This document shows, piece after piece, positions 1,767 through 56,128 of a stretch of DNA of 64,000 bases (its first letter is position 1; each line of letters begins with the position of its first letter). The position numbers were made by a program, and so were the translations under genes. Below the pieces are notes generated by a model. That model did not search any database, was not told where the DNA came from, and was given only the letters and a program-made list of their open reading frames with translations. This DNA is from Cinnamomum chago (taxonomy: Eukaryota; Streptophyta; Magnoliopsida; Laurales; Lauraceae). The stretch covers positions 35,967,001 through 36,031,000 of the forward strand of contig CP142461.1 in assembly GCA_038049695.1 (NCBI GenBank), given 5' to 3'.

Positions 1767-2057
1767 CTCCGAAGTGATGAACCAAAGATTTTCTTATTTT
1801 GGGATGAAGAGAAGTAAGAAGTTGTGGTGTAAGAATTTTTTCCAAAATGGTTTGTATATATGAAATATTCCAACGGCTAGTTTTCTCCAACGGCTAGTTT
1901 CCTCCAACGGCTATAAAATGGTTAGTGAAATGACAACTTTATAAAACTAATTCATTAATTAAAATAAAAGATACATATTAATTATAAAATACAATACAAT
2001 TCAGAAACCACCACCTAACCCTCCTCTCAGAATTTCAAGTCTTTTTTTAGCATAATA

Positions 2058-13265: not shown

Positions 13266-13573
13266 AAGGGCTTGTTTGGCAATTCTACTATTACATTTAA
13301 GTAAGATAAAGCCCCATTGTAAAAAAAAAAAATCTCACAAAAAGCACTTTAATTCAAATTTCCCACCATATCTTTTCAAAAAAAAGTAAAAAAAATAACC
13401 TCATTTCTCTACTAAAAGATAAAAAAAACTCCACTTTTTAATAAAAATAATAAAAAAGATTCTATCACAAACAACTAAAAATAAAATATCATCATAACTC
13501 ACTTATATTTTATTATTTCTTAAAAATAACATTTATTCCACTCAATTCTATTAATAAAGCTCCAGACAGACCC
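13266..13573. mobile_element. Tourist-type MITE (PIF/Harbinger)
   Basis: The left end AAGGGCTTGTTTGG pairs loosely with the right end CCAGACAGACCC, and the element is flanked by TAA on both sides (13263-13265 and 13574-13576), a TWA target. The interior is AT-rich with the phrase CTAAAAATAAAA followed by ATCATCATAAC. The same phrase and order occur in the better preserved copy at 41012-41312, so the two are one family. Confidence 0.72.
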
Positions 13574-33618: not shown

Positions 33619-36285
33619 TCACCAGTAATCCCCGCACGAACAAAACCCATCCTTAAAATGATGGAATCTTCTAACATCCCTCACAACGATCTCCCGCTCC
33701 ACAATCTTTGAAATGTATTTGGTGGCCACATGGCAATCATTGCAAACACGAAGGTTCTTGGCAACCCGAATGGTTGTTCCTGGAGGAGAATTAAGGATGC
33801 CAAATGCTATGGCTAACCTCTCACTGTGCCCACATAGTAGCCACTCTTTTTCCTCCTCGCGCACATTATGAAGGACACATGAAGTGTCTGGAACATATCC
33901 TTCCTTCCTCATTTTCTCTGATAACTCCTCAAGTAGCCCATGGAGCTCTGCACTCTGTGGATGAGATTCATCCCCAGACATGAACTTGTGCACCTCATCA
34001 CTGGCCTCAATCCAACTGCACCCAGGTTCTTTTCTCACTCCCATTTCCTTCATGTTCTTCCTCACATCAAACGCTTTGTCCCAGAGACCGGCTGATGCAT
34101 AAATGTTTGAAAGGAGAATGTAGTGACTGGCCACTTTTGGCTCCAGATCAATGAGACTCCTTGCTGCAATTTCTCCAAGTTTTACATCTCCATGTATCCG
34201 GCATGCCCCCAGCAGGCTACTCCATGCATCAGCTAGGTCAAGGCCGGTGGGCATGGTCATGATGAGCCGGTATGCTTCTTCTAGTTGCCCTGCCCGACCA
34301 AGCAAGTCCACAACACATGCATAATGATCAGATTTAGGTTCCACATCATATTCCACTTTCATTCGGTGGAAGATATCTAGCCCTTGGCTCACCAGCCCAG
34401 AGTGGCTGCATGCAGCAAAGACTGCAATAAATGTGACCTCATTTGGGTTCACTCCATCAGTTGTCATTCTTTTTAGTAGCTTCAGTGCTTCTTCTCCATG
34501 TCCATGCATCCCATAAGCCATGATAAGAACATTCCAGGTGATTAAGTTTCGTTTGGGCATCAGGTCAAACACTCTTCTAGATAACATCAGGCAACCACAT
34601 TTTGCATACATATCGACTAATGCACTCCCCACTGCAACATCCAATGCTAGTTCATGTCGAACCGCATAGGCATGGATCTCTTTCCCCTTTGCCAGTGCCG
34701 CCAGGGCAGCACAACCAGGTAGAACTGTAATGAGTGTTATTGCATTTGGCTTATACGGGACACTTAAGCAATCATCATTATCATCATCCTCAGTGCTTTC
34801 TTTTGCTCCTCTTACTCTTTGCATTTCCTGCATTAGATGAAATGCTTCATCATGACATCCATTGATCACGCAACCAGTAAGCATGGTATTCCAAGAAATC
34901 AAGTCTTTTTTGTCCATGCTCTCAAATATCTTCCTTGCAACTTCCAACTTCTCAATCCTAGAATACATGTCCATAAGAGCATTCTGCACATACCGGTTGT
35001 CCTCAAAACCCCTCTTCACCACATATCCATGGATATCTTTTTTCCGGGAGAAAGCTTCACAACGAACACAAGCAGGCAGCACACTTGCCATAGTCGTTGG
35101 ATTTGGGCAAAGCCCTGCAACAGCCTCCATCTTCATGAAAAGCCTCAACGCCTCTTCATCAAGATCATTTAGCACATAACCGGCAATCATAGCATTCCAA
35201 AGCCCGATTCTGCACTCTGACATCGCATCAAACACTCGGCGACCACTTTCAATCTGTTTGCAATTGCAATACATGTCCACTAATGCACTGCCCACATAAG
35301 AATTTTCAAAGAGATTGTCAGTCCTCAAGACATACGCATGGATTTCCTTTCCAACATCCAACAATTCCAAATGGGAGCAAGCCGGGAGCACACTTGCTAC
35401 AGTGACCCCATCAGGCTTGATCCCCTCAACCACCATCAGCCGCAAGAGAGCCACCGCCTCCACAAAACGATCGCTCTGCGTTAACGAACTAATCATCGTG
35501 TTCCAAGAAACACGGTCACGGTTGTTAAACTGATCAAACAATACACGCGAATCAACCACCCTCCCCAATTTAGCATACATTGCCATCAGTGCATTACTCG
35601 TGAACGTCTTCCCATCGCAATCAAAGAAACCCATTCGCAACCCATACCCATGAACCTGCTTCCCCAGCCGCAACCCATCCCGCCCGCCAATGTGCGAGCA
35701 GGCAAGGGCAACACTAACAAGTGTGAACGAGCTCGGTTCCACTCCCTCCTCCTCCAAGCACCGGAATGCCTCCAATGCAAGGCTCCACTCCTCAAACCAG
35801 CACAAAGCAGCAATCATCGAATTCCAAGAAACCTGGTCTCTGTGAGTAATTCTATCGAACACCTGGTACACATCCCCGATATCACCGCATTTCCCATACA
35901 TGGAAAGCAGGGTGTTGGCGACCGTGGTGGACGATGAATGGTAGCCGAGTTTTACAGCGGCAGCATGGAGCTGCTTGCCGGAATTGAGGTCGTGGAGGCC
36001 GCCAGCTGCCTTGAGGGCGGCGGGGAAGGCGAAGTTGTCGGGTGTGATTCCAGCAATCGTCATTTCCAAGTAGGTGAGAAGGGCATCTTGGAAGCGGTTG
36101 GAGCGGGCGTGGGAGCTGAGTTTCCCGTTCCATGAGGCTGGGGATGGTCGTTTGGAGATTGGTGGGGAAGTGAGGTGAGGAGGGCATTGGAGGGAGTGGT
36201 TTTGAATGGGAGTTGGTTGGTTTTGGCGGGAAGAGGGAGAGAGGGGAGGAGAAGAGAGAGGGAGAGAGAGGAAATAGATGGGCAT
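33619..36285 (-). CDS. OTP84: DYW-type PPR RNA-editing factor, OTP84 orthologue
   Basis: This is a single-exon gene of 888 codons, from ATG at 36283-36285 to TGA at 33619-33621. It aligns along its whole length with Arabidopsis OTP84 (At3g57430, about 890 residues), for example DMYCNCKQIESGRRVFD, SRKKDIHGYVVKRG and PKRNLITWNVLIMAYGMHG. In Arabidopsis OTP84 directs chloroplast C-to-U editing of ndhB, ndhF and psbZ transcripts. The first ~50 residues are Ser/Pro-rich without acidic residues, like a plastid transit peptide. Residues ~53-690 are PLS-type PPR repeats. E/E+ follow, then the DYW deaminase domain from ~PDTSCVLHNV with HSE in GHSERLAIAFG, CNDCH, CSC and the terminal DYW. A low-complexity acidic loop (ESTEDDDNDD) sits between repeats. 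No damage is seen. The neighbouring giant MULE begins 2 kb upstream. Confidence 0.96.
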   Translation of the reverse strand: MPIYFLSLPLSSPPLSPSSRQNQPTPIQNHSLQCPPHLTSPPISKRPSPASWNGKLSSHARSNRFQDALLTYLEMTIAGITPDNFAFPAALKAAGGLHDLNSGKQLHAAAVKLGYHSSSTTVANTLLSMYGKCGDIGDVYQVFDRITHRDQVSWNSMIAALCWFEEWSLALEAFRCLEEEGVEPSSFTLVSVALACSHIGGRDGLRLGKQVHGYGLRMGFFDCDGKTFTSNALMAMYAKLGRVVDSRVLFDQFNNRDRVSWNTMISSLTQSDRFVEAVALLRLMVVEGIKPDGVTVASVLPACSHLELLDVGKEIHAYVLRTDNLFENSYVGSALVDMYCNCKQIESGRRVFDAMSECRIGLWNAMIAGYVLNDLDEEALRLFMKMEAVAGLCPNPTTMASVLPACVRCEAFSRKKDIHGYVVKRGFEDNRYVQNALMDMYSRIEKLEVARKIFESMDKKDLISWNTMLTGCVINGCHDEAFHLMQEMQRVRGAKESTEDDDNDDCLSVPYKPNAITLITVLPGCAALAALAKGKEIHAYAVRHELALDVAVGSALVDMYAKCGCLMLSRRVFDLMPKRNLITWNVLIMAYGMHGHGEEALKLLKRMTTDGVNPNEVTFIAVFAACSHSGLVSQGLDIFHRMKVEYDVEPKSDHYACVVDLLGRAGQLEEAYRLIMTMPTGLDLADAWSSLLGACRIHGDVKLGEIAARSLIDLEPKVASHYILLSNIYASAGLWDKAFDVRKNMKEMGVRKEPGCSWIEASDEVHKFMSGDESHPQSAELHGLLEELSEKMRKEGYVPDTSCVLHNVREEEKEWLLCGHSERLAIAFGILNSPPGTTIRVAKNLRVCNDCHVATKYISKIVEREIVVRDVRRFHHFKDGFCSCGDYW

Positions 36286-36592
36286 GGTCGTTAGTTGTTA
36301 AGTTAGTTATGACGGTTGGAAAAGATGAGTAGCTGCAGAGGAGATATGGAAAAGGAACAAGTACATGTATTTATCCGAGTGGTGAGAGCAACTGACTGAC
36401 CTGGTCCGTTCAAATGACCTGTGACAGTGCTTGAAACGATCTGGTCCGTCCAAATGACACGGAGAAAGATGAGTATCAAATCAAATGAAGGAGAAGAGCA
36501 GAGGAAGTGGGCGGAAGTGGAGGGGAGGAAGAAGAAGAATACGTGGTTCCGTGTCGCGCGGTGGCATGAGATCCTCTTGTCATCATGCATGC

Positions 36593-37779: not shown

Positions 37780-38045
37780 ATCCGAATGTGAGGTGATTTA
37801 TGAAGAGTAAATTGGGATGTTCGGGTGTGAGATGTGAAGAAGAGATGAGGATTATTTTCTATTTTTGGACATGAAGGTATTTGAATATGGGATGTGAAGA
37901 AGAGGGGTTGGGGTCGATTTTCTGGTTTTTTGAGATAGGGGTGTTTGGATGTGGTATGTGAAGAAAAGGGAATGAGTATAATTTTCTTGTTTTTGGAGAT
38001 AGGGATGTTTGGATGTTGGGTGATTTGATGAAGAAGGATTGGGTT
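37780..38045. repeat. ~62-bp minisatellite, 4-5 diverged copies
   Basis: The word GATGTGAAGAAGAG (or a close variant) recurs near 37831, 37891, 37954 and 38022, each preceded by GG(T/A)(T/A)G-TTTGGATGT-like sequence and followed by ATTTTCT. A minus-strand open frame across it (37859-38278) only reflects the repeat and shows no protein family. Confidence 0.7.
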
Positions 38046-39317
38046 GGGGGTGTTTGAGGGGCTGTTTTGGTGGTGGCTGATCTTGTGAAGAATAGTAAAT
38101 GAATAGGAGATTGGTTTTGAACTTGAGGTGATTTTAATAAGAACAAGAAGAAATGCGGGTTTTCAATTTTGAGGGTTTTGATGTAGAAGATATCTAGCAA
38201 ATTATATATATATAAAGACGGCAGACAACAACCCTTTTCACGAGGGTCATCAATTATGGAAGTTGATGACATCATCAACCAATTGACGATGTTATAAAAA
38301 AGAAAAAAGAGGATTTAACCGGAAAAAACACTTAATCCGCACGTGTTACGCAATCAAACACTTTAGCAAGTGGGGCACCAATTAGAGCAATTGGGCCCAA
38401 TTTTCATTTTTTTTACCAATTTGTCATATCGTCGGCGCCGACCTTATTTACACTGAATAAGATCAACGATGACCCTATCCGCGCACAGTTTTAGGGCTAA
38501 AATCCATGTTTCTTCTCATTTTTTTATATTCTCTTCTAGCCTATTGTCGAGACTGACCTTGGGCGAGTTACGAAAAGCGGTTGCTTCCATTTCCACAATC
38601 ACCAGCTTACAAACCGAATTCCTCAAGTGATTCTCGTCAGGCCCATCATTTTTTCCATCGTCCTTCATTTCAATCGACACTCCAGAGGTATGAATCTCCT
38701 TTTTGAATCCTTTTCAATATTTTTATATTTTCCCTCCATTTTGTTTTCCCGCCATCCCGCATATGATATCGAAAATGCATGGTTTGTTATCTTCAATGTC
38801 ATATTCAATTTGTACATTATTTTTTTTGCTTTGATTAGGGTTTGTAGATTCCAATTTTAGGGTATTTTCAGTTGAGAAGGATGATGGAGGATTGAGGTTT
38901 GTTTTAAGTGAGTTTGAGTGAGTTATTTTAATTTTCTAAACTTGAGGAAGTTGTATGTGGTCATAGAGTTACCTGCACCAAATAATTTTAATTTTCATCA
39001 CTCTAGAGTCCAGAGTGCATCAATCTGAAAGTCTCAGTGCTGTCGTTTTCCCTGCACGAGTGACAAATTCCTGAATACAGAAATTAATACCTCTTGTTCA
39101 TAAATTTTGGTATTTGGCCCATCAATAACTTGTGGTAAAGAGTCACAATGTGTTCATTTGCATGGTATTGAGATTTAAGAGTATACTCCCCCTCCAGTTC
39201 CCAGTTGAACATAATTAAACATCAACAGCGATCCCAAGTTATAGGAGCACAATAAGCATATCCATTGAGTAGCAATGAAAGAATAAAGATATATGTTAAC
39301 CATATAATTTTGCATAC

Positions 39318-39730
39318 CTATAAGGCATATGGCTGAGACTTCTTTGACACAGGACAAACTATTGCTTGACGTGTGCTCAACCAGAAAGGCCACTTTCCTT
39401 TATAATGTTCCACAAGCATTGCAAAGATATGTTCAACGGATCAAAGGATAGCCCTATGTATCATCACAGGTCACTCCATTTTAGCTTCATCCTCTGCTGA
39501 GTAAGTCAAGTTTAAGTGAGAAGGGAGTTGAAAGTCCAGCTGGCATATGTACATTCATCAATTAAGAAATAGAACGGACAATTGACAGGGAGTATGACTA
39601 CATTATATCATAAAACATAGAACCTGTAGTGTTGCACACTGGATTTTCCTCTTCAAAGCATCAAATACATTAATATCTATTTTTAGTCCATAAAATGCTT
39701 CATCTCCTTCATTGATTTGTACACAAAGAT
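39318..39730 (-). pseudogene. Captured threonyl-tRNA synthetase exons
   Basis: Two exons and the intron between them of a host ThrRS gene lie inside the left arm, antisense to the PMD gene. Exon i (39624-39730) follows a CTTTACAG acceptor and reads [18 protein letters not shown], then [13 protein letters not shown], with a GT donor after it. Exon ii (39318-39539) follows ATGCCAG and reads LDFQLPSHLNLTYSAEDEA, PVMIHRAIL, SVEHIFAMLVEHYKG and KWPFWLSTRQAIVCPV, then a GTATGC donor. These correspond to the class II core through motif 3 and the start of the anticodon-binding domain, closest by eye to the organellar-type enzyme (Arabidopsis At5g26830). Introns and splice sites are kept, so capture was from genomic DNA. 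At least two codons have become TGA (Arg before PVMI, Gly after HRAIL), so the copy is non-coding. Exon phases agree (107 and 222 bp). Confidence 0.88.
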
Positions 39731-40227
39731 CTGTAAAGAAAGAAATGTAAAGAAAGAACCATACTTATATAGGCAAACAGATTTACCCACACCTGTGAAA
39801 ATCCCGTAACAAAAGAGTTCCCAGATCCAAAAGATTATCTTGGGTCACTTTTCACTTTTCAAAAGTTGCCTATCATAGTGTGTCCCCTATTAGTAAAACT
39901 CTAAATTGGAATGGAGCTTATATTAACTTTCATATCTTATGTACTTGTAAACAAAGCAAGTTAGGGTTTTGAAATATGATGCATGTGGTGCACCACAACC
40001 ACATCACATCACACATGTGAGGGTATGGAAAATTATTGTCACTCCATAAAAATTATTTTTTAATGCTGGATCTCTCAACTGCTTTAATATTGTCACTAGT
40101 TCTCCTATCTTGATTTTACTATTTCAGAACATTGTTTTTTACTATTGCTGACATTTAAATTAATGTGCCATTGTAAAAATTACTTTTTACTATTCAATGC
40201 TATCATGTATAATTTGGATGTACACAA

Positions 40228-43200
40228 ATGTCTAAAGAGAATACCAGCAATGCTGAAGAGCCCCGCAACGAGGCTAGTACCTCAAATGCACAACCAGCAG
40301 TTCTTTTATGCGAGCAAGAGCATCGCATCTCGGCCGTTATTCAACGTGGTTTGGTATACTCTCTTCTATAAAACCAGTAATCAATTGAATTTCCTTTTGA
40401 TCTATGGCTAACGTTATTAAAACTTTCATTTTTCTCGTAGGAGTTGGGCACGTACAGATGCTTTCTCACTAACCCCGACTATAGGCAGTGGGACCTCAAC
40501 GAGCGACAGATGCAGTGGGTTGCCGATGCCGGACTGTATCATCTGGCTCAGATGAGGTGGATGAGGATTGACCATGCATTGATCATGGGGCTGATCAAGC
40601 GGTGGAGGCCGGAGACGAACACATTTCATCTCCCATTCGGCGAGGCGACCATCACATTAGAGGACGTAGCATACATCTACGGCCTACCTATTGATGGTCC
40701 GCCCGTAACGGGCCAGACATACACCCACTACGAGATCGATGATCTATGTCGGGAGCTTCTTGGTGTGGTGCCCCAAATGAAAGAAGACTACAATGGGGTT
40801 TCCCTTAAGTTCACATGGCTGGAACGCACTTCCGTCTCACTCCGGAGGAGTTGAGAGAGAAGGAGAAACCGAAACCAAAGGGAAAGAAGAAAAAAGGAAA
40901 AGGAGATGCGAAGAAGAAGACAACAAAGGCCGAGGATATATTTAAAACTCAGGCCTATTTGTTTTTTTTTTTTTTTTTTTTGTGGCGAGACAAATTCTTT
41001 GCAATTCTTCAGGGCGTGTTTGGATGTGTGGTGAAGTGAGGTGAGGTGAGGTAAAGCCTCCATTATCCAGACAAGAAAAGACAATGAGTCATATCAAAAG
41101 TACACAATTTCAAAATTCCCTCCATCTTTTAAAAAAAAAGTCAAAAAAACAACCTCCTTTCTCCACTAAAAGACAAAAAAGCTCCACTTTTCTATACAAA
41201 AAGTCAAAAAGATTCTATATCAAACAACTAAAAATAAAACACCATCATAACACCTTATATTTTATTATCTCTTGATGTGATGCTTCACCTCACCATACAT
41301 CCAAACAGGCCCTCAGGGGCACGAGGCCCCTTTTATATTTTAGAGTTGTTTAGGGAGTTTAGGCCCTATTCATGGGCCTCCGCTTGTTTAGCGAACTTGT
41401 ATAGAATGCTAAATAAGGGTGTATATTGGAAAGGGGTTCAGAGGCTTGAGATGCCCGACCCTACCGATGAGGGGAATGCTATGGGGAAGAAGTTTAAGTC
41501 TCTTTCTGGCCCCCTGCAGCTTCTTCAGGTGAGCTTGATATATTTCCCCTTCATACTTTCACTATTTATATCTTAATGTTCTAATGAATCACTTTCTTTT
41601 AACAAATATGAGCTTACACCAGAATGAAGATTGGTAGAGGTCTAAGTCCAAGCAACCGCTTAGATCATGACATACAATTTTCCCTCATGGTAACATGTGC
41701 GAACCGACATTTAGGAATGACCCATCTTACGACCTTGAGAGAAGTGCGAAAGCAACTCAATTACATTACGTCCAAAGAGGTAAAAAGATTTTATTTCAAT
41801 TTTCCACTAATTTTCATACTTACTTTAATGGTTCTAATTGACTCAATGCTTCATGCACAGTTTGAGTGGCAGCCGTATAAGAAATATGGAAAGGATTTTT
41901 TTAAGCATGTCAAGAAGGCTGACAGAGCACTCTTCACAACAGACTCTCCCCTTATCTCATACTGGGTGTTGGAGCGTCACCCTACCCCAAAGGTCATGAG
42001 GCAGTTTGGCTTGAGACAGACGGTGCCTCCACGCTTTGTCAGGCCCATATTGCGGAAAGAAAATAAGAAGAGATCTGTGACAGATTGAAGTCTAGTGAAT
42101 GAGGAGGAGGTGAAGTCATGGGAAGCTCGGGCAAACAATGTGCTCAAGAGAAAAGGAAAAAAATCAAAAGGGGGGGGGGGGGGGGCGGAGGATGAAGAAG
42201 AATACAAGAGATGGTATGAAGCGAATACCATCATGCATATTGGCCGTGTCAGGCAACGCGACGAGCCACAAAGGGATCCTCCCCCAAAGCCCAATGCCCA
42301 AGCTCCTACAGTCCCACAGACCCGAGTATGACGTTCACACATTTTGCATCCCTTACTTTGCTTCACATTGATTTAGTTAATATATTTTCTAACAGGATCC
42401 TTTCAATATGTCCAATGCAGGTCTCTCTCTTCCTCGACCACGTGGTACGGTCATACGATCGTTCGATCGCTGCAAATGTGGACCTACTCACCTTCATAAG
42501 TTCGATTAAGAGAAAGGTCAACAGATTTAGGTCCACATTTGGGACTACGTACCAGGACTATATCGAGACATGTAGTTCATCCGAGGAGGAAGTTGATGAC
42601 ACTCTCATAAGGATATAATTAATTTCGAGCATTTCATTTTGTGAATTGATGAATGTTTTTTGTGATTTTCTCACCATAATTTGCTTCATTTTGCAGACCG
42701 ACAAATCGCAAAAGCGTGCAAGGATTAAGAGGAAGTCCTCAAAAAGCCCCACTAAGAAGCATCGACCTAGTATCGAGGCTCCCTTGATGATAAAGGACTC
42801 CCTCGTCAAGGCGTCAGCCTCCCACACTTTGGATGAGGAGTAAAAAAACTGAAGTTGATGCCAGCAATTTTGACACAGCTTTTGGCGATGTGGATGACAT
42901 CCCTATCGAGGATCTTATCTCTGTCTCACTCGTTCCTCAAGGATACAACACTCCACCGAAGGGCACTAGCCAGGCAATCATTGTATCACCTACACAGGCT
43001 ACAATCGCTTCTTTGATATGGAGGTGCAAGCATATACCGAGGCTAAGGAAGATCCCGGATAGGTTTTTGGATTATCACCATCCATTGCCCCAAACGGGTT
43101 ATGTTCTGATGGATGTGGAGAAGGAACTGTTGATGGATTTCTTTAAATATTACACGCATAGGTAGCTGCAATTGTTGAAAACAGTTCTGTGGTAATGTAA

Positions 43201-44051
43201 TCTTTGTTTGGTTTTTACTAATTCAACATCGAAATACTCATTGCATTGACAGGAAAGAGGAGCTGGATATGATCATCTCGTGCGTCGATTCTAAGTCCCT
43301 AAGAGACTTATTGGACGAGGGCACTTGGATGGACTCGAGTATCATATATTTTGGGTTTGAAGTGCTAAGGGAAAGGTACAAGGATGCATACTTGGCTGAC
43401 CCTAGTATATGCATAAGTTCGATAAAAAATGAAAGTCACTTTGATTTTCTACTCACTTGGTTAAATGTCCTCTCTTGTTTGATGTCTGAGATGCTAGTCT
43501 TGCAGAGTTACTGGGAAAATGGTCTAAAGACTTGAGATGACATGGCCTTTAGACTAAAGGGAGAACGTGTAATGGACGCGATAGAGTGCAAAACTCTAGT
43601 CTACGAGATTCACGCTCACAACCATTGGTCCTTACTCGTTGGATATGTCAATGAGAGCCCCTGGGAGTACTATAACAGTTCAAAGGGAGAGATCTGAGGC
43701 CAAAAGACTTGTGAAAGATTCGTAAGTACATATTTGCTCCTCTCTTGGCAGCAAAATGTTTAGATAGTACATAAATTTTAAAATTGATATATCATGCAAT
43801 TTCACTTTGTTTAGACAGATATTGTGGCTTCAACAAAGATTTTTGGATCACGAGTGGTCGGTGCCTATGATGTGGACGATGACCACAAAGACGGACATCC
43901 CATTTCAAGACAATGAAAATGACTGCGGGTTGTTCGCCTGTGCGTTCGCGAAACATTGTAATATCGTTGTCCCATTGAGTTCATCCAATCAGACATCCCG
44001 TACTACCGGCGAAGAATTGTCATTGACATATTTGAGCAAAACTGGGTTTGA
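40228..44051 (+). pseudogene. PMD-ULP1 transposon gene, left-arm copy
   Basis: Exon 1 (40228-40353) encodes MSKENTSNAEEPRNEAS up to VIQRGL. After a GTATAC intron, exon 2 (40441-41528) begins ELGTYRCFLTNPDYRQWDL and carries the plant mobile domain (QMQWVADAGLYHLAQMRWM, EATITLEDVAYIYGLPIDG, PYSWASACLANLYRMLNKG). Exons near 41606-41779 and 41861-42329 finish PMD (HPTPKVMRQFGLRQTVPP). The later exons (42421-44051) give a C48/ULP1-type protease: HAHNHWSLLVGYV (His), TDIPFQ (Gln) and NDCGLFACAF (Cys), ending FEQNWV. Damage includes a one-base loss after FTWLER, a changed acceptor before exon 3 (AA for AG), stops near 42087 and 42841, further shifts near 43535 and 43965, and the MITE in exon 2. PMD and ULP1 genes are known MULE passengers; their job in transposition is not established. 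Confidence 0.82.
41012..41312. mobile_element. Tourist MITE inserted in the PMD exon
   Basis: The termini are GGGCGTGTTTGGATGT and ACATCCAAACAGGCCC (15 of 16 as inverted repeats), flanked by TCA on both sides (41009-41011 and 41313-41315), a TNA target. The matching place in the right arm (near 53312) has a single TCA and continuous exon sequence, an untouched empty site. Length 301 bp, no reading frame. Same family as 13266-13573. Confidence 0.95.
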
Positions 44052-44334
44052 AATGCTTTAAGGCTTAACCTCCCTCCACTCCCGGTCTTGCCCCCTGACT
44101 TGCAGTGAACTGTTCCTTGTGGTACTTGTGTTCTTCCAAATGCGTTGTAATGTAACTTGTAATTGAAATGATTATGCTGTGAATGTTGTGAATTTCTAAC
44201 TGTATGTTGGATTGATTTCTAACTTGTATATGAGATGTTGATTGAAAGTCAATTGAATGCATAGTTTGTCTTGTTACACCGTGTTGTTGTATTTTGATGT
44301 AAATGTCAAAGTCTCAGCATATTTTTTTTCCTTC

Positions 44335-45150
44335 TTCATACAACGTCATCACCGACCCTGTACGATTAAAAATACTCAAAATGTTACAACTTCATGATGA
44401 AAAATTAAGAAACCCGTGTCAGTGATGACCTTATTTACAGCGTTAAGGTCATCACCGACCCTGTAACACTTAATCGTACTGAAAAAGTTACAACTCTTGG
44501 TCAAAAAAAGGGAAACATGCGTTAGTGATGACCTTATTTTACAAATGTAAGGTCATCGCCGACCCATACTTAGAAAATTTGACACAAATATCCTGGAAAA
44601 GTTACAACTCTTGGTAAAAAAAAGGGAAACATGCGTCGGTTATGACCTTATTTTACAAAGGTAAGGTCATCGCCGACCCATATTTAGAAATTTTGCCAAA
44701 AGCCTCTTGGAAAAGTTACAACTCTTGATTAAAAAAAAGGGAAACCTGCATCGGCGATGACCTTATTTTACATAGGTAAGGTCATCGCCGATCCGTACTT
44801 AGAAATTTTGCCAAAAGCCTCTTGGAAAAGCTACAACTCTTGGTTAAAAAATAGGAAAACCTGCGTCGACGATGACCTTATTTTACATAGGTAAGGTCAT
44901 CGCAAACCCATACTTAGAAAATTTGACACAAATATCTTGAAAAAGTTACAACTCTTGGTAAAAAAAAAAGAAGGGAAATATGCGTCGGTGATGACCTTAT
45001 TTTACAAAGGTAAGGTCATCGCCGACCCTGTAATCAATTTTTTCACATTACTCCCCTGAAAAGTTACAGCTTCTTGTTAGAAAAATAGCTAACCTGCGTC
45101 GGTGGTTACCTTATTTAACACTACTAAGGTCATCACCGACCCTATAATGA
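44335..45150. repeat. Hairpin-unit satellite array, left arm
   Basis: About eight units of ~95-120 bp. Each unit holds an inverted pair, GTCGGCGATGACCTTA ... TAAGGTCATCGCCGACC, separated by about 8-12 bases, plus a linker with AAAAGTTACAACTCTTGGT. A transcript would fold into a stem of about 16 bp per unit. Units differ by a few bases. The same motif appears once near each outer end of the element (38428-38481 and 55930-55985). No protein is encoded. Confidence 0.93.
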
Positions 45151-45260
45151 TACATTCCACGTATATTAGATAAAAATCCATGTAGAATCTTTACGTTGCA
45201 TAACTGCATTACATCATCTTCGAGGAAAAAAAATGGGTTCCACACCTCTTTTTAAAAGAA

Positions 45261-46860
45261 ATGATAAATTATACAAAAGCATCCAAAAGTGCAAAACATT
45301 GTTTCAAAAGAAATGATAATATATACACAAACTTCCAAAAATGCAACAAAAAACAATACTTCCATGTTAATAAGATAACCCATAAACCACTCATGGGAAC
45401 TGCACATCGGCAAGCAATCGTGAAGTTAATAGCAAAGTTCATTGAAGAGAATGTGCGATGCAATAACGATCTTAGGCCAAAGGAGATCATCAATGAATGT
45501 CAAATTGAGTTTGGGACCCGCATTTACATATAGGAGAACATATATGGCAAAGGAGATTGCACTGTGCAAAGTGCGTGGATCGTACGAGGAGTCTTTTATG
45601 ATATTGCCGCTCTATTGCAACGAGCTTCATAGAACCAACCCCGGTTCGTACACTGCGTTGGACATCAGGGAGGATGAACGATTCAGACGCTTCTTTTGGT
45701 CCTTCGGTTTATGCTTAAGGTCATTCCAAACCTCTCTAAGGCCATTGATAGCGGTGGATGGTTCACACCTTCGTGGCAAATATCCTGGAGTGTTAATGGT
45801 GGCCGTAATACATGATGCAAATCATCAATTGTTCCCTATTGCATTTGCCTTTGTTGAAGCGGAGCAACGTGATAGTTGAGAGTGGTTTCTTGCACACTTA
45901 TCCTTGTCGTTGGGTGAGCCAAAAAATCTGACAATCGTATCCGACCGTCAGAAAGGTCTGATTCCTGCAGTACAAGTCATAATGTCAAGCGCAAAACATT
46001 GTTTTTGTTGCCATCATATAGCCGAAAACATAAAGGCGGCTGTCAACGACCATGGCATTATAAGAAAATTTTGGAGCATGGCTAGGGCATACCGACCTTG
46101 TGAGTACGATGCTTGCATGGACCACATCAAAAGTGTAGATGAGTGTGCATATAATTGCATTCATGCGATCGGCTGTCAGTTCTGGTCAACGGCATTTGCT
46201 CATGGACGCAAGTATGGCATGCTTACCAGCAATGCTGCTAAGTGCACAAATAGTCTACTGAAAGACACCCGAGTGCTTTCGATTGCAAAACAGGTGGAAG
46301 AGATACGTGCAAAACTCATAGAATTCTTTCAAAGACTGTCAACTCAAGTACAAAGCATCACTTCAATATTAACACCATACGCAGAGAAGTACCTAGCCAC
46401 AGAGATGGAAGAATCGCTAAGGTTGATGGTACGTATAGCGCCATTGAATGAATATCAAGTGCAATCTTTAGAGTATGTTGATGTAGTTAATCTAGATCGC
46501 GGGACATGCTCATGCCGCAAATGGGACGTGATTGAAATCCCATGTTGCCATGCTGTTGCCACCATGAAAGCGTGGAATATGAATCCATATGAGTATTGCG
46601 AGCACTAGTACCTCACAAGCATGTACCACAAAACGTACAGTGATGTAATTCATGCCACCCATGATAGAAAGCAATGGGAACAACATTTAACCACCAGGAG
46701 AGTCCTCCCACCATTGGCTACCAAGCAACCGGGTCGACCAAAGAAGAATAGGATCCGAGTTGAAGATCGACATCGCAAGCGAAGAGTTGTAACTTGTTCG
46801 TGTTGTAAAGAGAGGGGTCACAACCGTGGCAACTGTAAAAATCCGTCAATTCAACAATGA
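45261..46860 (+). pseudogene. MULE transposase (MURA-like), single copy, damaged
   Basis: The reading starts in the tip of the left arm (45261; an alternative ATG is 45393, almost at the palindrome junction). It runs HRQAIVKLIAKFIEENV and IRED-containing text, LIAVDGSHLRGKYPG (first Asp), LTIVSDRQKGLIPAV (second Asp), CFCCHHIAENIK (the C-x2-H motif), W..AFAHGRKYGMLTSNAA, then a SWIM finger (GTCSCRKWDVIEIPCCHAV), a basic PGRPKK patch and a zinc knuckle CSCCKERGHNRGNC. The N-terminal MuDR domain is not seen. There is a frameshift near 45528, a stop after EQRDS (45877) and another after YEYCEH (46606). In TSNAAKCTN, most relatives have Glu (AES.N) where this copy has Lys, probably the third catalytic acid. 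It is therefore inactive. Confidence 0.88.
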
Positions 46861-47193
46861 CGTTTATGGATTTTCTGTTTTGGGGACGCTCATGTAATTT
46901 TTTTATTTTAGGATATATTTTTTGGAAAGTTTTTTTTTTTTGTATGTATGTTTATGGGTTGTCTTATTAACATGGAAGTATTTTTTTTGTTGCATTTTTG
47001 GAAGTTTGTCTTTAAATTATCATTTCTTTTGAAATACTGTTTTACACTTTTGGATGCTTTTGTATAATTTATCATTTTTTTAAAAGAGGTGTGGAACCCA
47101 TTTTTTTTCTCAAAGATGATGTAATGTGGTTATGGCAACGTAAAGATTCTGCATGGATTTTTATCTAATGTACGTGGAATGTTTCATTACAGT

Positions 47194-50100
47194 GTCGGTG
47201 ATGACCATAGTAGTGTTAAATAAGGTCACCACCGACGCAAGTTAGCTATTTTTCTAACAAAAAGTTGTAACTTTTCAGGAGAGTAATGTGAAAAAAAATT
47301 CATTACAGGGTCGGCGATGACCTTACCTATGTAAAATAAGGTCATCACTGATGCAGGTTTCAATATTTTTTAACCAAGAGTTGTAACTTTTCCAAGACGC
47401 TTTGTCAAAAAAATCTAAGTATGGGTCGGCGATGACCTTACCTATGTTAAATAAGGTCATCACTGATGCAGGTTTCAATATTTTTTATTCAGGAGTTGTA
47501 ACTTTTCCCAGATGCTTTGGCAAAAAAATCTAAGTATGGGTCGGCAATGACCTTACCTATGTTAAATAAGGTCATCATCGACGCAGGATTCAATATTTTT
47601 TAACCAAGAGTTATAACTTTCCCAAGACACTTTGGCAAAAAAATCTAAGTATGGGTTGTAAGTCCTAGGATCCTAACCCTAGAGGGGGGGGGGGGTGAAT
47701 AGGGTGTGCTACAACTATGACCAATTTAGACCAATTTTAATTTCTTAACATAAACTAGTCACATGTGATGATTAACAAACAAAATGCGGAAGCTTAATGA
47801 AAACAATCACCACAAAGCAAGCACCATCACACAAGGATTTATAGTGGTTCGGCCTCAATGCCTACATCCACTACCGGCTTGTGATCCAACACCCCACCAG
47901 ATTTCCACTATTTATGCTTTTCAATAGGCTAAGCAATAACCTTTACAATATGTTTTTCAAGGCTTAGCAATAACCTTTACAATGATGTTTTTCAAGGCTC
48001 AACATCAACCTATACACTATGCTTTTATAGGCTAAGCAATAACCTCTTCAACCACAAGGTTGGTTATCTCACTAAGATAGTGTCTATAAACACTTGATGG
48101 AGATTCAATTAAGCTCATTACAATGCCTCTTAATTAGGCGGATATGGAAGTGAAAATCTAATACACACTCACACTATGAATGCAAAGATGAAAGCACATG
48201 AAGTGTGTGTGTGTGGTCCTCAATCATTTTGAAAATGAAAGCTCATAAATGTATGCCTAAGGCTTTTGAAAGTTTTAGCTCATAAAACATTTATGATTGA
48301 GGAGGTAATGCAAGTCACATGTTAAAAGTAACAACTTGTTAATGATGTCAAAGATACACAAGTTGTATGAAATGAATTAGCTCTAAACATGTGATGCATA
48401 GGGATGTCAATCAAATCAACAATGAAGCTCAAAACATAAAAATAGATTTGATTGAAAAGAGTGGACAAATCATATGTAATTATAAATACAACTTGAAAGT
48501 GATATACCTATCAAAGTAAGGCAAGTTGTGAAACTTTAAAACAATAATACACATATGATTTGTAAAGATGTTGAATCCAAAACATAAGATACATTTGAAA
48601 GAGATTTTCTTATGATGGAAAAACAACAACCAAAGATTCAACCAAGTATATGAATCATGTTACATATTTCATTAACATGATCTACTTAGATTTACCAAAG
48701 ATAAAGTACTACTTGGATTGAATCAAATGGTGATGCATCCAAAACAATAGATCTATTCAAAGTATAAAACATGTTAAGGATACAACACATCATAGTTTAT
48801 CATGTTACTAAAGATTTACCAATGATAAAATAAAACATGAAAACATATGATTTGTAAAGAAGTTGAGTCCAAAACATAAAATAGTTTTGAAAGTGATTTT
48901 CTTATGATGGAAAACAACAACCAAAGATTCAACCAAGTATAGGAATCATGTTACATATAATTTCAAAGGTTCTTTCATTAACATGATCTACTTAGATTTA
49001 CCAAAGATTAAGTACTACTTGGATTGAATCATATGGTGTTGTATCCAAAACAATAAATCAACTCAAAACATAAAACATGTTAAGGACACAACACAAACAT
49101 AGTTTAACATGCTAGAAATGATTTACCAAAAATAAAACAAAGCATAAAAACATATGATTAAGGAAAGTAAAGCCTACTTGGTGATTTAACTTCATTAATC
49201 CAAGTTTTAGCTTTCCTAATGCTCCCCTTCATCCCTTGGTTCTTTTCCCTTGAATATGCCTCAAAACCTCTCAAGGAGGGGCTTAAAATTCCCAACTTTT
49301 GGCAAAGGAAAGAACTCATATTTATAGCAAAAAGTGCCCAACGGCTAGTCCTCGGTCGACCTGCAAACAGGTCTCGGTCGACCGGGAACACACAACGGTC
49401 AGAAAAATGACCGTTGGGGCGCCAGGGCAACTTTCTGCCTGCAGTGTTCCCGGTCGACCGGGACCTCTGCGCCGGTCGACCGGCGACACTGCCGGGACCC
49501 CAAATTCCACTTTTGCAAGTTTCAAAGATTTTCTTTGTGGAACATTTTGGGCCATTAAATCAAGCTTAAAAACATGTTTTAAATCATTCTATGGGTTTTA
49601 AAACATGAACCATAAAAAGCCTAAAACATTTTGAAAGATTTAAAACTCATAGGCTAGCTTGATTTTCTAAAACTCTTTTCAAATCAAATGCATCCAAGAT
49701 TTAAAAGAAAATCATGCATAAATCAAAACTTTTACAACTCTTAAAAGCAATGCATGAATAAAACAAGATTTCAAGTTTATCTAAAACAATGCAAGTGTGT
49801 AAATCAAATTATGCTTGAATGATTATGCATCCATCAAATTGCAAGCTACAAAATCCCTAACATGGGTCGGCGATGACCTTACCTTTATAAAATAAGGTCA
49901 TCACCGACGCAGGTTTCAATATTTTAAGCCAAGAGTTGTAACTTTTCCAGTAGGATTTAGTGTTACAGGGTCGGCGATGACCTTAGCACTGTAAATAAGG
50001 TCATCACCGACGCAGGTTTCCTAATTTTTCATCATGGAGTTATAACTTTTCAATTATGTTTTAGTCCTACAGGGTCGGCGATGACCTTACCCTTTGTAAA

Positions 50101-50310
50101 ATAAGGTCATCAGCGACGCAAGTATCCATTTTTTTGACCAAGAGTTGTAACTTTTCCAATAGAATTTAGTGTTACAGGATCGGTGATGACCTTAGCGCTG
50201 TAAATAAGGTCATCACCGACGCAGGTTTCCTAATTTTTGTCATAGAAGTTGTAACTTTTCGAGTATGTTTTAGTCGTACAAGGTCGGTGATGACACTGTA
50301 TGAAGGGAAA
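47194..50310. repeat. Hairpin-unit satellite array, right arm, split by a solo LTR
   Basis: About nine units: four to five before the LTR (from 47194) and five after it (49863-50300). Each carries GGTCGGCGATGACCTTA ... TAAGGTCATCACCGACGC with a short loop and the linker GAGTTGTAACTTTTCC. It is the mirror image of the left-arm array. The LTR landed inside one unit, between AGTATGGG and TCGGCGATG. Confidence 0.92.
47657..49862 (-). mobile_element. Solo LTR, 2206 bp, LTR-retrotransposon fossil
   Basis: It starts TGTAAGTCC and ends CCTAACA (TG...CA), with a perfect 5-bp target duplication TGGGT on both sides (47652-47656 and 49863-49867). No primer site, polypurine tract or coding region is present, so it is a lone LTR left by recombination. 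On the minus strand it contains CTATAAATCC as a possible TATA element, which suggests minus orientation. Parts include an internal tandem duplication of roughly 310 bp (about 48540-49160) and GGTCGACCGG words near 49440-49490. Copia-like by general look only; family not proven. It is younger than the palindrome, because the left-arm array lacks it. Confidence 0.85.
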
Positions 50311-50603
50311 AAAATAATATGCAGTGACTATGACATTTACATCAAAATACATACAACAACACAGTGTAACAAAAGAGCTCAAACATCCAATATACAAACA
50401 TAGATTCAATCCACTTTCAATCAACATCCCATGTACGAGTTAGAAATCAACATCCAAAGTTCGGAATTCAAAACAATATTCACATCATAACGATTTCAAT
50501 TACAAGTAAAATTTCAACACATGTAGCACAGAGGAATTGTTCACTACAAGTCATGGGACAAGACCCGGAGTGAAGGGAGGTTAAGCCTTGGAGCATTTCA
50601 AAC

Positions 50604-53600
50604 TCAGTTTTGCTCAAATATGTCGATGACAATTCTCCGCCAGTAGTACGGGATGTCTGACTGTGTGAACTCGATGGGACGACAATATATGCAATGCTCC
50701 ACGAATGCACAGGCGAACAACCCGCATTCATTTCCATTTTCTTGAAATGGGATGTCCGTCTTTGTCGTCATCATCCACATCATAGGCACCGACCACCCGT
50801 GATCCAAAACTCATTGTTGAAGCCACAATATCTGTCCAAACAAAGTGAAATTGAATTATACCTCAATTTTGAAATTTATGTACTATCCAAACATTATGCT
50901 GCCAAGAGATGAGCAAATATGTACTTACGAATCTTTCAAAGGTCTTTTGGTCCCAGATCTCTCCCTTTGAATTGTTGTAGTACTCCTAGCGGTTCTCATC
51001 GACATATCCAACGAGTAAGGACCAATGGTTGTGAGCGTGAATCACGTAGACTAGAGTTTTGCACTCCATCACGTCCATCACACGTTCTCCCTTTGGCCCA
51101 ATGGCCATGTCATCCCAGTCTTTAGACCATTTTCCCAGTAACTCTGCAAGACAAGCATCTCAGACATCAAACAAGAGAGGACATTTAACCAAGTAAGTAG
51201 AAAGTCAAAGTGGCTTTTATTTTTTATCGAACTTACGCATATACCGGGGTCAGCGAAGTATGCATCCTTGCACCTTTCCCGTAGCACTTCAAACCAAAAA
51301 TATATGATACTCGAGTCCATCCAAGTGCCCTCGTCCAATAAATCTCTTAGGAACTTAGAATCGACGCACGAGATGATCATATCCAACTCCTCTTTCCTGT
51401 CAATGCAATGAGTATTTTTACGTTGAATTAGTACAAAACCAAACAAAGACTGCATTACTAATATTTATAGAAACAATTGCAGCTACCTATGCATCTAATA
51501 TTTATAGAAATCCATCAACAGTTCCTTCTCCACATCCGTCAGAACATAACCCGTTTGGGGCAATGGATGTGGATAATCTAGAAACCTATCCGGGATCTTC
51601 CTTAGCCTCGGTATATGCTTGCACCTCTATATCAAAGAATTGATTGTACCCTATGTGGGGGATACAATGATTGCTTGGGTAGTGCCCTTCGGTGGAGTGT
51701 TGTATCCTTGAGGACCGGGCGAGACGGAGATAAGATCATCGATAGGGATGTCATCCACACTGCCAAAAGTTGCATCAAAATTGCTTGCATCAGCTTCATT
51801 TTTTTGCTCCTCATCCAAAGTGTGGGAGGCTGATGCCTTGACGAGGGAGTCCTCTATCATCAAAGGAGCCTCGACACTAGGTCAAGACTTCTTAGCGGGG
51901 CTTTTAGAAGACTTCCTCTTAATCCATGCATGCTTTTGCGATTTGAAAGTCTGTAAAATGAAGCAAGTTATGGTGAGAAAATCACAAAAAACATTCATCA
52001 ATTCACAAAATTAAATGCTCGAATTTAATTATATCCGTTCGAGAGTATCATTAACTTCCTCATTGGATGAACTATATGTCTCGACATAGTCCTGGTACGT
52101 AGTCCCAAATGTGGACCTAAATCTGTTGACCTTTCTCTTAATCGAAGTTATGAAGGTGTGTAGGTCCACATTTGTAGCGATAGAACGATCGCATGATCGT
52201 ACCACGTGGTCGAGGAAGAGAGAGACCTGCGGTGAATATATTGAAAGGATCCTGTTAGAAAATATATTAACCAAATCAATGTGAAACAAAGTAAGGGATG
52301 CAAAATGTGTGAACGTCATACTCGAGTCTATGGGACTGTCGGAGCTTGGGCTTCGGGCTCTGGGGGAGGATCCCTTTGTGGCTCGTCCCGTTGCCTGACA
52401 CGACCAATATGCATGATGGTATTCGCCTCATACCATCTCATGTATTCTTCTTCATCCTTCCCCCCCTTTTGATTTTTTTTCCTTTTCTCTTGAGCACATT
52501 GTTTGCCCGAGCTTCCCATGACTTCACCTCCTCCTCATTCACTAGACTCCAATCTATCACAGATCTCCCCTTATTTTCTTTCCGCAATATGGGCCTGGCG
52601 AAGCGTGGCGGCACCGTCTGTCTCAGGCCAAACTGCCTCATGACCTTAGGGGTAGGGCGACGCTCTAACACCCAGTATGAGATAAGGGGAGAGACTATTG
52701 TGAAGAATGCTCTGTCAACCTTCTTGACATGCTTCAAAAAATCATTTTCGTATTTCTTATACGGCTGCCACTCAAACTGTGAATGAAGCATTGAGTAAGT
52801 TAGAACCATTAAAGTAAGTATGAAAAATTGAAATGAAATCTTTCTACCTCTTTGGACGTGATGTAATTGAGTTGCTTTCTTACTTCTCTCACAGTCATAA
52901 GATGGGTCATTCATAAAAGTCAGTTCGCCAATGTAACCATGAGGGGAAACTGTATGTCATGGTCTAAGCGGTTGCTTGAACTTAGACCTCTACCAATCTT
53001 CATTCTGATTTAAGCCCAGATCTGTTAAAAGAAAGGGATTCATTAGAATATAAAGATATAAATAGTGAAAGTATGAAGGGGAAATATATCAAGCTCACCT
53101 GAAGAAGCTGCAGGGGGCCAAAAAGAGACTTAAACTTCTTCTCCACAGCAATCCCCTCATCGGTAGGGTCGGGCATCCCACGCATCTGGACCCCTTTCCA
53201 ATATACACCCTTGTTTAGCATTCTATACAAGTTCGCTAAACAAGCGAAGGCCCGTGAATAGGGCCTAAACTCCCTAAACAACTCTAAAATATAAAAGGGG
53301 CCTTGTGCCCCTGAAGAATTGCAAAGAATCTATCCCGCCACAAAAAAAACAAAAAAACAAATAGGCCCGAGTTTTAAATATATCATCGGCCTCTGTTGTC
53401 TTCTTCTGTGCATCTCCTTTTCCTTTTTTCTTCTTTCCCTTTGGTTTCGGCTTCTCTTTCTCCCTCAACTCCTCCGGAGTGGGACGGAATATACGTTCTA
53501 GCCATGTGAACTTAAGGGAGACCCCATTGTAGTCTTCTTTCATTTGGGGCACCACACCAAGAAGCTCCCGACATAGATCATCTATCTCGTAGTGGGTGTA

Positions 53601-54092
53601 TGTCCGGCCCGTTACGGGCTGACCATCAATAGGTAGGTCATAGATGCATGCTACGTCCTCTAATGTGATGGTCGCCTCGCCGGATGGGAGATGAAATGTA
53701 TTCGTCTCCGACCTCCACCGCTCGATCAACCCCATGATCAACGCATGGTCAATCCTCATCCACCTCATCTGAGCCAAATGATACAGCCCGGCATCGGCAA
53801 CCCACTGCATCTGTCGCTCGTTGAGGTCCCACTACCCATAGTCGGAGTTGGTGGGAAAGCATCTGTATGTGCCCAACTCCTGCGAGAAAAATGAAAGTTT
53901 TAATAACGTTAGCCATAGATCGAAAGGAAGTTCAATTGATTACTGGTTTTATGGAAGAGAGTATACCAAGCCACGTTGAACAGCGGCCGAGATGTGATGC
54001 TCTTGCTCGCATAAAAGAACCACTGGTTGTGCATTTGAGGTACTAGCCTCGTTGCGGGGCACTTCAGCACTGGTGGTATTCTCTTTAAACAT
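50604..54092 (-). pseudogene. PMD-ULP1 transposon gene, right-arm copy
   Basis: Mirror copy of the left-arm gene. Exon 1 is 53967-54092 (MFKENTTSAEVPRNEAS to VQRGL, donor GTATAC). Exon 2 is 53099-53879, with PMD motifs intact (QMQWVADAGLYHLAQMRWM, FTWLERIFRPTPEELREKE). Later exons give RPTPKVMRQFGLRQTVPP, EEEVKSWEARANNVL, and the protease part HAHNHWSLLVGYVDEN, TDIPFQENGNECGLFACAF, ending IVIDIFEQN at the TGA 50604-50606. The exon 3 acceptor AG is kept here. Damage is mostly at other places than in the left copy: a stop in exon 2 (DYG-stop-WDL, near 53833), a frame change in the T-rich stretch near 53345, and a stop after DENR. Transcription would run inward, toward the transposase. Confidence 0.82.
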
Positions 54093-54259
54093 CTGTGTAC
54101 ATCCAATTATACATGATAGCATTGAATAGTAAAAAACAATTTTTACAATTGCATATTAATTTAAATGTCAACAATAGTAAAAAGCAATGTTCTGAAATAG
54201 TAAAATCAAGATAGGAGAACTAGGGACAATATTAAAGCAGTTGAGAGATCCAGCATTAA

Positions 54260-54797
54260 CCGAGAAGGCTAAATACCTTGTCTATATTTATACTATTTCA
54301 TTGACAACAATCTTTTGTTAGAATTTGATGCAAAAATATAAGGTTACAAATATTGATTCTTGTCTATATGTAGAAGCATTGCAAGTAAATGTTTTACTTT
54401 TGTACTTTATTATTGTTTCCCATGTTTCATGGAAAGTTGTTTCAAGGAAAGATGTTTGTCTTTCTACTTTATATACAGAGTAACAAGGGGCGTGAAAAGT
54501 ACTTTGCATGTAAGGGGTGGAGTCATAATATTTCTAGTAAATTCAAGAAGGAAAAGCGTGCATTTTGGTGAGACTCTATTTGTGTAAAGCAGACTATTGA
54601 GAGCTTTTCATCTTCTTTAGTGAACAAAGAGCTGTGAATCACCATTTGAAACCATGACTCCATTTGTCGATTTGGTTAGGCGCATCATGTTGATGAAATT
54701 TATATATATATACATATATATATTATATATCACTTATCATGTTAGTTGACAAAGTCAAGATTGAAGTCTTAACATGGTTTGACATTGTAAAGGCTAA

Positions 54798-54828
<31 letters not shown>

Positions 54829-55532
54829 TTTACTCCAGCTTAGGAGGTTGGGATCTAAGAGAGCCCACACAAGTAGAAAGAGGAAGCCCACAACATGGTG
54901 GGGTTGTGATTTGATTTAATGTATTTTTTTAAAACCGTCGGCTTAAAAGATGGAAAATCAGTGTCACTCATGAATCAAAACTATTACATAATGGCCAAAA
55001 TCACTTTAGTTTCAGTTGAGCTTGAAACCATCTCTTGTCTAGAACAACAATATGCTCCAAAAATTGTATGCTTCATAGAAACAGAAAATAGACTGATCTG
55101 AAGTTTCATACATTTTCATCACCATACATCATTGGATTAAATCACAATTAAGGATGCACTCACTAACCCATTAAACTTTGAGTTCATCTATAAATAGGGA
55201 AAAGTTTCAATTCTGCCATCAAGACTAGAATAATCAAATCATCATAGAAATAGATCGATCCCAATTCCCATCCCCATGTTACCACTAGGATTCATGGAAG
55301 GAGTTGGATCATTTACATGACTATAGTGCATACAAACGTAGATAGGAACAAGATATATCCCAAACAATGGTTCCCTATTAAATTGTGCCGAGTGTAGCAA
55401 GCCGTACAGGTGAATGCATGGATCTATCCCTGTTTCGCCTCCGCTATTGGCGCCATGTTACACGGTTTTACTTGGAATTCCACCTGTGATCTCACGACGA
55501 CGACTACTACCATAATCCAAAAAAATACACAC
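54260..55532. other. Private segment of the right arm, origin unknown
   Basis: This 1.27-kb piece occupies the same slot as the ThrRS capture in the left arm but shows no similarity to it. It holds a (CT)n microsatellite (54799-54828). On the minus strand, from about 55460 to 55240, an open stretch of about 70 codons reads HGANSGGETGIDPCIHLYG and NREPLFGIYLVPIYVCMHY without a stop. I do not recognise it. It could be another captured fragment or chance. Confidence 0.5.
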
Positions 55533-56128
55533 TGAAAATACCCTAAATTTGGAATCTATAAACCCTAATCAAAGCAAACAAACAATGTACAAATTGAATA
55601 TGACATTGAAGATAACAAACCATGCACTTCAATATCATATGCGGGATGGCGGGAAAACAAAATGGAGGGAAAATACAAAAACATTGAAAATGATTCAAAA
55701 AGGAAGGAGATTTATACCTTTGGAGTATCGATTGAAATCAAGGACGACGGAAAAAACGATTGAAATCAAGGACGAAGGAAAGAGAAGCACTTGAGGAATT
55801 CGGTTTGAAGGCTGGTGGTTGTAAAATGGAAGTAACCGCTCATCGTCGCTCACCCAATGTCAGTCTTGACGGTAGACTAGAAGAGAGAAAGAAAGAAATG
55901 AGAAGAAACAGGGATTTGAGCCCTAATAGTGTCCGCAGATAGGGTCATCGCCAATCTTATTTAGTGTAAATAAGGTCGGCGCCGATCATGTGAAAAAATG
56001 GTAAAAAAGAAAAAAGAAAATCGGGCCCAATTGCTCTAATTAGTGCCATACTTAAAAAAGTATTTGATTGCATAACACGTCATGATTAAGTGTATTTTTT
56101 TTTTTAATATATTATTAACGACCGTCCC

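Follow-up and report, generated by a model that had tools for sequence, protein, structure and literature searches.

The region between positions 38320 and 56104 raises the question of whether a MULE can exist, and move, as a giant palindrome, or whether the symmetry seen here arose in another way from members of an ordinary family. The region lies in a window of 64 kb, by which the whole stretch of DNA analysed is meant. In content the window is plant DNA, with PMD domains, a PPR gene of the DYW type and plant transposons. An earlier sequence-only reading had described two 7-kb arms in mirror order, each with the same PMD-ULP1 gene and hairpin array, around a single transposase gene, and had offered as explanations both an inverted duplication of one element and an unusual family that moves as a palindrome. 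The features of the locus are collected in Table 1.

Table 1. Features of the mirrored MULE locus, from left to right (positions in the 64-kb window).
Feature	Position	Strand	Remarks
Outer end, left arm	38323-38872	+	about 550 bp; inverted match to 55531-56098, 84%; one motif copy at 38431
Left-arm-only segment, captured threonyl-tRNA synthetase gene fragment	38873-40059	-	two exon pieces
Left PMD-ULP1 pseudogene	40060-44050	+	PMD exons 40441-42330; Ulp1 C48 exon about 43813-44050
MITE, 301 bp	41012-41312		left arm only; TSD TCA
Left hairpin array, 7 units	44342-45150		motif scans, unit comparison; hairpins z -7.9 and -6.8
Inner unique part, left arm	45151-45387		14 of 233 sites differ from right arm; end is junction J1
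MULE transposase remnant	45388-46860	+	MULE domain, SWIM, zinc-knuckle-like stretch; 5' part missing
3' untranslated side of transposase	46861-46949	+	runs uninterrupted into right arm at junction J2
Right inner part and 4 hairpin units	46950-47656		arm homology, unit comparison
Solo LTR, TG...CA, 2206 bp	47657-49862		inside right hairpin array; TSD TGGGT
Right hairpin array continued, 4 units	49863-50295		motif scans, unit comparison
Right PMD-ULP1 pseudogene	50592-54259	-	antisense to transposase
Right-arm-only segment	54260-55531		unrelated to left-arm segment
Outer end, right arm	55532-56098	-	arm homology; two weak motif copies

Self-BLAST of the window confirmed the mirror order of the arms. 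The left arm (38323-45387) and the right arm (56098-46950) are inverted copies of each other, connected by the inverted matches 38323-38872/56098-55531 (84% identity), 40060-41014/54259-53309 (93%), 41313-44810/53314-49849 (88%) and 44676-45387/47656-46950 (87%), with E values of 0 to 2e-173 for the four. The length of 7 kb claimed for both arms holds for the left one (7.1 kb) but not for the right one, which measures 9.1 kb because it contains the solo LTR. Moreover, each arm harbours about 1.2 kb between its outer 550 bp and the PMD gene without homology to the other arm (38873-40059 versus 54260-55531), and the homologous portion is therefore only 5.6 kb out of the 7.1 kb of the left arm. 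The centre between the arms, 1562 bp long, is single-copy within the window.

In the arm core (40060-44060, both inserts excluded) the arms are 92.2% identical, with 286 differences at 3668 sites (7.8%). These differences are evenly distributed: the longest identical run is 75 bp, compared with 76 +/- 16 bp in shuffles, the variance of the difference counts between subdivisions of the core is at chance level, and there are no conversion tracts. The noncoding part of the core (78 of 1063 sites) is not more diverged than the exons (206 of 2595). Two stretches differ about twice as much as the core, namely the outer 340 bp, with differences at 56 out of 340 sites (Fisher p 6.9e-7), and the flank 3' of PMD-ULP1, with differences at 47 out of 264 (Fisher p 4.5e-7). 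The divergence of the latter is not explained by a single duplication date. Transversions make up 27 of the 56 differences in the outer 340 bp (38323-38663 and its right counterpart) and 22 of the 47 in the 3' flank (44061-44340 and its right counterpart).

The single transposase gene reported for the centre was recovered as a truncated remnant, in which a MULE domain (PF10551, 5.9e-17), a SWIM domain (PF04434, 9.5e-7) and a zinc-knuckle-like stretch are recognizable. The combination of a MULE-domain DDE transposase with a SWIM zinc finger is that of the MULE superfamily, in a protein that is broken by an in-frame TGA (45877-45879), a TAG (46606-46608) and a frameshift near 45535. When 38300-46952 was searched in six frames, with matches accepted up to E 1, no other part of a transposase was found besides this central stretch, on which a weak Transposase_mut match (E 0.08) also falls. 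Plant MURA proteins normally have a further N-terminal DNA-binding region before the MULE domain. Here the left-arm homology ends about 120 codons ahead of that domain, and at junction J1 (45387) it adjoins the 5'-truncated transposase directly. The second junction, J2, lies about 90 bp past the transposase stop. Since J2 is placed like an undisturbed 3' UTR and the transposase is cut at J1, J1 is the abnormal joint. In the right half the transposase (+) and the antisense PMD-ULP1 gene (-) follow each other in the standard plant-MULE order, so that this half appears to be the normal 3' half of a MULE.

Relatives of the coding regions were sought as well. The transposase ORF (45880-46608) gave 12 pattern stretches in viral contigs and 87 in genome contigs, none of which was confirmed as a relative, and the PMD ORF gave 66 in viral contigs, again with none confirmed. 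Comparison of the transposase ORF with solved structures returned only three weak unrelated matches (best E 0.013).

That the two arms contain the same PMD-ULP1 gene was also borne out. The PMD domain (PF10536) is detected in the left arm (2e-30 and 1.1e-11) as well as in the right one (4.7e-30 and 1.2e-12). The Ulp1 C48 domain (PF02902) is detected in the left arm with an E value of 5e-5 and 23.7 bits, above the cut-off of 20.7, although in a longer read-through piece it scores 18.9 bits, below this cut-off; the right-arm C48 exon and its antisense orientation are assigned by homology to the left arm. Both copies are dead. With exon frames and borders set by eye, 20 stop codons were found. 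Three of them were not regarded as inactivating, namely 40438, an intronic stop of the left arm at the acceptor site, 42329 (both arms, past the exon 4 donor) and 50600 (both arms, the natural end). Of the 17 internal in-frame stops that remain in the frames examined, five are in the left copy and 12 in the right, and none is common to both arms; the count omits short stretches at frame changes (a poly-T near 40960, a G-run in exon 4 and a few others). Exon 1 of the right copy has no stop in the correct frame. Frameshifts common to both arms were considered for exon 3 and rejected, as one frame is open throughout this exon barring arm-private stops.

Comparison of the two copies over 861 aligned codons (212 differences) showed a stop in one arm at 16 codons and in both arms at none. 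Under neutrality 9.3 +/- 2.9 one-arm stop codons are expected, and 1.4% of the runs reach 16. The dN/dS ratio between the arms is 0.57, against 0.71 +/- 0.11 in the neutral simulation, where 9% of 400 runs gave this ratio or a lower one, and the differences at the three codon positions (58, 74 and 74) show no significant bias (p 0.28). A simpler Fisher test of synonymous against nonsynonymous sites gave p 0.0005; the simulation was preferred because it includes the transition excess. Weak constraint may have acted prior to the death of the copies. Taken together, the private stops and the near-neutral change indicate that both copies derive from a gene whose frame was still open throughout the stretches examined, and that they then decayed with little or no constraint.

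Motif scans in both arms corroborated the mirrored hairpin arrays. The arrays are built of the 16-base motif GTCGGCGATGACCTTA, mostly in inverted pairs. With up to three mismatches, all 34 matches in the 64 kb fall inside 38320-56104, 31 of them in the arrays and three at the outer ends, the latter at 38431 on the left (two mismatches) and at 55940 and 55971 on the right (three mismatches each). The Y form of the motif, with up to two mismatches, has 32 matches in the window versus 0.01 expected. The exact 23-base motif occurs neither in the viral nor in the prokaryote collection. In single-strand folding, three array hairpins reach z values of -6.8 to -8.1, and the folds of the outer ends are weaker (z -1.3 left, -4.2 right). 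There are seven full units on the left and eight on the right, and only two pairs across the arms are mutual best matches, L7 with R8 (91%) and L6 with R7 (89%). Units L2-L5, R1, R3, R5 and R6, eight of the 15, are nearest to units of their own arm; the seven nearest to the other arm include L1, closest to R3 and R1 (86 and 85%), as well as R2 and R4.

The segments private to each arm differ in content. The left-arm segment is similar to Thr-tRNA ligase (phmmer 3.6e-26) and to the Pfam family tRNA-synt_2b (1.1e-6, exactly at the cut-off). Its two synthetase stretches are contiguous in the protein yet lie about 80 bp apart in the DNA, and are therefore probably exons separated by an intron; the fragment is a typical MULE gene capture of the Pack-MULE type. 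The six frames of the right-arm segment gave no family match above the curated cut-off and one sub-threshold match, RP854 (E 0.009). As for the inserts, the MITE of the left arm, which we take to be Tourist-like, has its empty site intact in the right arm, and self-BLAST found a MITE-like sequence also at 13340-13521. The solo LTR carries an internal near-tandem duplication of about 300 bp (48551-49159, 86%).

The outer ends, defined solely by where arm homology stops, carry no TSD above chance. At the exact ends the best 9-mer has four mismatches out of nine, and 1284 of 2000 random pairs do better. Within 20-30 bp of the ends the best 8-, 9-, 10- and 11-mers, with 1, 2, 2 and 2 mismatches, are at chance level, being equalled by 344, 513, 320 and 144 of 600 random pairs, respectively. 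The 11-mer, whose two copies lie about 24 bp and 36 bp beyond the respective ends, was rejected as a TSD on account of these 144 random pairs. No 8-11 bp TSD of the kind that MULEs have was thus found around the whole. Some 95 bp separate the right end from the first ATG (56195) of an open frame that reads rightward, has no Pfam match and presumably carries a histidine-phosphatase-like motif. The nearest identified gene on the left is a leftward 892-codon PPR-DYW frame (33619-36297). If these two are the sole neighbours, no flanking promoter is aimed into the element, and any transcription would start in the outer ends of the element itself. Directly left of the left outer end there is a degenerate minisatellite of units of about 60 bp (37828-38044).

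Our leading explanation, held with somewhat less than even confidence, is that the locus is a dead compound of an ordinary plant MULE family, formed by two head-to-head insertions that were fused by a deletion. An intact element of the family would consist of the 5' end, a forward transposase, the hairpin array, a PMD-ULP1 gene in the opposite direction and the 3' end. Two such copies would have inserted in opposite orientations, with their 5' ends facing, between the PPR gene and the probable gene from 56195. One later deletion would then have taken the transposase of the left copy, both 5' ends, any intervening DNA and the N-terminal part of the right transposase, leaving a pseudo-palindrome in which two 3' halves flank a single transposase stump; the same deletion would also account for the loss of both inner TSD partners. 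It is from the observed arms, truncation, arm-private decay, arm-specific segments, lack of a TSD above chance and confinement of the motif to the element within the window that we infer the two insertions and the deletion.

Two insertions are favoured because the right half has the published layout of a MULE, because the transposase loses its 5' part exactly at J1 while J2 falls in the 3' UTR, and because no TSD links the outer ends. They are favoured, furthermore, because different 1.2-kb segments lie between the same homologous borders, as would be the case in two members of a subfamily, because array units seldom pair across the arms and eight of them are nearest to their own arm, because divergence in the outer 340 bp and in the flank 3' of PMD-ULP1 is about double that of the core, and because the gene was open at the split, none of its stops being shared. 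Given the even core divergence, the near-neutral dN/dS and the one-arm stops, the two copies would have been near-identical in the core on landing. Against two insertions it must be said that a single duplication explains the near-identical core at least as well, that seven of the 15 array units are nearest to units of the other arm, that facing copies of the same family in one intergenic region require coincidence or local preference, and that no 5' end of the family survives at the locus.

The published layout is that of MUDR-group elements and of ULP-carrying MULEs of the KAONASHI/KI-MULE type. In the excerpts of the descriptions available, PMD is antisense in most MUDR-group elements (PMC6446971) and ULP lies downstream of the MULE transposase in either orientation (PMC2528002). 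The locus shares with them the MULE and SWIM transposase and the antisense PMD and Ulp1 gene: in the right half the transposase is on the plus and PMD on the minus strand, and an antisense Ulp1 C48 gene is part of the element, as judged by PF02902 in the left arm and by homology in the right. In these excerpts, however, there is one such gene per element, whereas the locus has a mirrored pair and has lost a 5' half.

Inverted duplication of one element, as suggested by the sequence-only reading, is a live rival to the two insertions, possible but less probable. Aberrant repair, be it of the gap left by excision or through template switching in a fold-back, would have recopied the PMD-ULP1 side in inverted orientation and joined the second copy inside the transposase, and the 1.2-kb segment of one arm would have been replaced later. 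The even, near-neutral divergence of the core and a gene open at the split suit one event, and there is a published case, maize Mu killer (Muk), in which, according to the excerpted report, both TIRs stem from the same MULE end and partial copies are inverted (PMC3440606). Nevertheless, gap repair would be expected to preserve the TSD, and a local fold-back has no reason to end at the element boundary. Nor does a duplication predict two different segments between the same borders, the twofold divergence of the outer 340 bp and of the 3' flank, or array units that mostly lack one-to-one pairing. To account for the segment, for the arrays and for the lack of a TSD, a duplication would need extra events.

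The comparison with Mu killer deserves attention, since the earlier remark that no described family with exactly this layout was known turns out to be too strong: Mu killer is similar, though its transposase sequence is in the arms (PMC3440606, in excerpt). As described there, Mu killer is an internally deleted, partly duplicated MULE between two genes, and like the locus it has both outer ends from the same element end together with an inverted duplication. At the locus the outer ends are likewise copies of each other, and they adjoin PMD-ULP1. The excerpt places the mudrA side in the duplication, which extends 1.298 kb into mudrA in each half, so that the arms carry partial transposase copies. 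In the locus, on the other hand, it is the PMD-ULP1 end and not the transposase end that is doubled, over a homologous arm of 5.6 kb that is about 8% diverged, and one transposase stump is central. Mu killer silences, whereas the locus is known here from its DNA only. Among the matches listed from the open-licence literature of PubMed Central there was no MULE of palindromic form whose arms each contain a whole accessory gene.

The view that the locus acts or once acted as a natural trans-silencer in the manner of Mu killer, aimed at the accessory (anti-silencing) module rather than at the transposase, seems improbable. Transcription that set out from either PMD-ULP1 promoter and ran on through the 1.56-kb stump would yield a long hairpin RNA in which PMD-ULP1 and the arrays are represented, and the resulting small RNAs would disarm every live copy of the family. 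A caveat to this view is that silencing by Mu killer was tied, in the excerpted report, to short antisense transcripts and not to read-through from a flanking gene (PMC3440606). If the arms do yield small RNAs, the locus would add another case of a MULE that a rearranged copy of itself has silenced.

A family whose members transpose as giant palindromes, with terminal inverted repeats of 7 kb, the second explanation offered by the sequence-only reading, is very improbable. The similar sequences that end both arms and the symmetrical layout would be in its favour, but there is no TSD above chance, the arms are unlike each other in the 1.2-kb segment, the make-up of the arrays and the outer 340 bp, and the transposase is cut at J1; lacking its 5' part, this copy would therefore be movable only in trans. 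FARE and other foldback elements (Tm1 etc.) resemble the locus in their long modular inverted repeats, and FARE also in a MULE-domain transposase (PMC3169594, in excerpt). The arms of foldback elements are repeat modules, not multi-exon genes as in the locus, and Tm1 has 9-bp TSDs where the locus has none above chance. An assembly artefact is the least probable of all, as nothing beyond the symmetry itself speaks for it and a read echo is excluded by the arm divergence of about 8%, the arm-private stops, the MITE in one arm, the solo LTR with its TSD in the other and the 1.2 kb of each arm unrelated to the other, although the divergence and private inserts do not count against a mis-join of two real loci, or haplotypes, at J1.

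Returning to the two fused insertions, the transposase of the live family would have moved the element, and PMD-ULP1 with the hairpin arrays would have been an accessory, anti-silencing system, a role proposed solely from the parallel to VANC proteins and the tandem motifs that they target. In the excerpts consulted, VANC targets are tandem motifs in noncoding regions whose copy number varies between related copies (PMC5735166, PMC10398659), some VANC genes carry a Ulp1 domain (PMC13317346) and some VANDAL-group members carry PMD (PMC6446971). The locus resembles VANDAL elements in having, within the window, a short motif in dense noncoding arrays with a copy number that changes between copies (PMC5735166, in excerpt); it differs in that its motif forms hairpins from inverted pairs. 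The VANC domains DUF1985 and DUF287 were not found in any of the three plus-strand frames of the left-arm gene, where only PMD and Peptidase_C48 were detected. The comparison with VANC is therefore functional only, even though some VANDAL-group members have PMD.

The locus is thus a useful specimen, most likely of two dead copies of an ordinary family rather than of a new kind of mobile element, and it illustrates that two decayed copies, or one botched copy, of a single MULE can mimic a giant palindromic transposon. It may serve as a test case for whether inverted loci like Mu killer recur in nature, and for whether PMD-ULP1 genes are paired with hairpin arrays against silencing, as VANC is with its targets.

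Elsewhere in the window, a transposon which we take to be of the PIF/Harbinger type lies on the minus strand at 437-3018, with a Plant_tran ORF (437-1456, 2e-92) and a NAM-associated partner ORF (2164-2565, 1.5e-13). Two-copy tandem duplications are present at 61238-61993 (about 375 bp, 90%) and 10785-11298 (260 bp, 98%).
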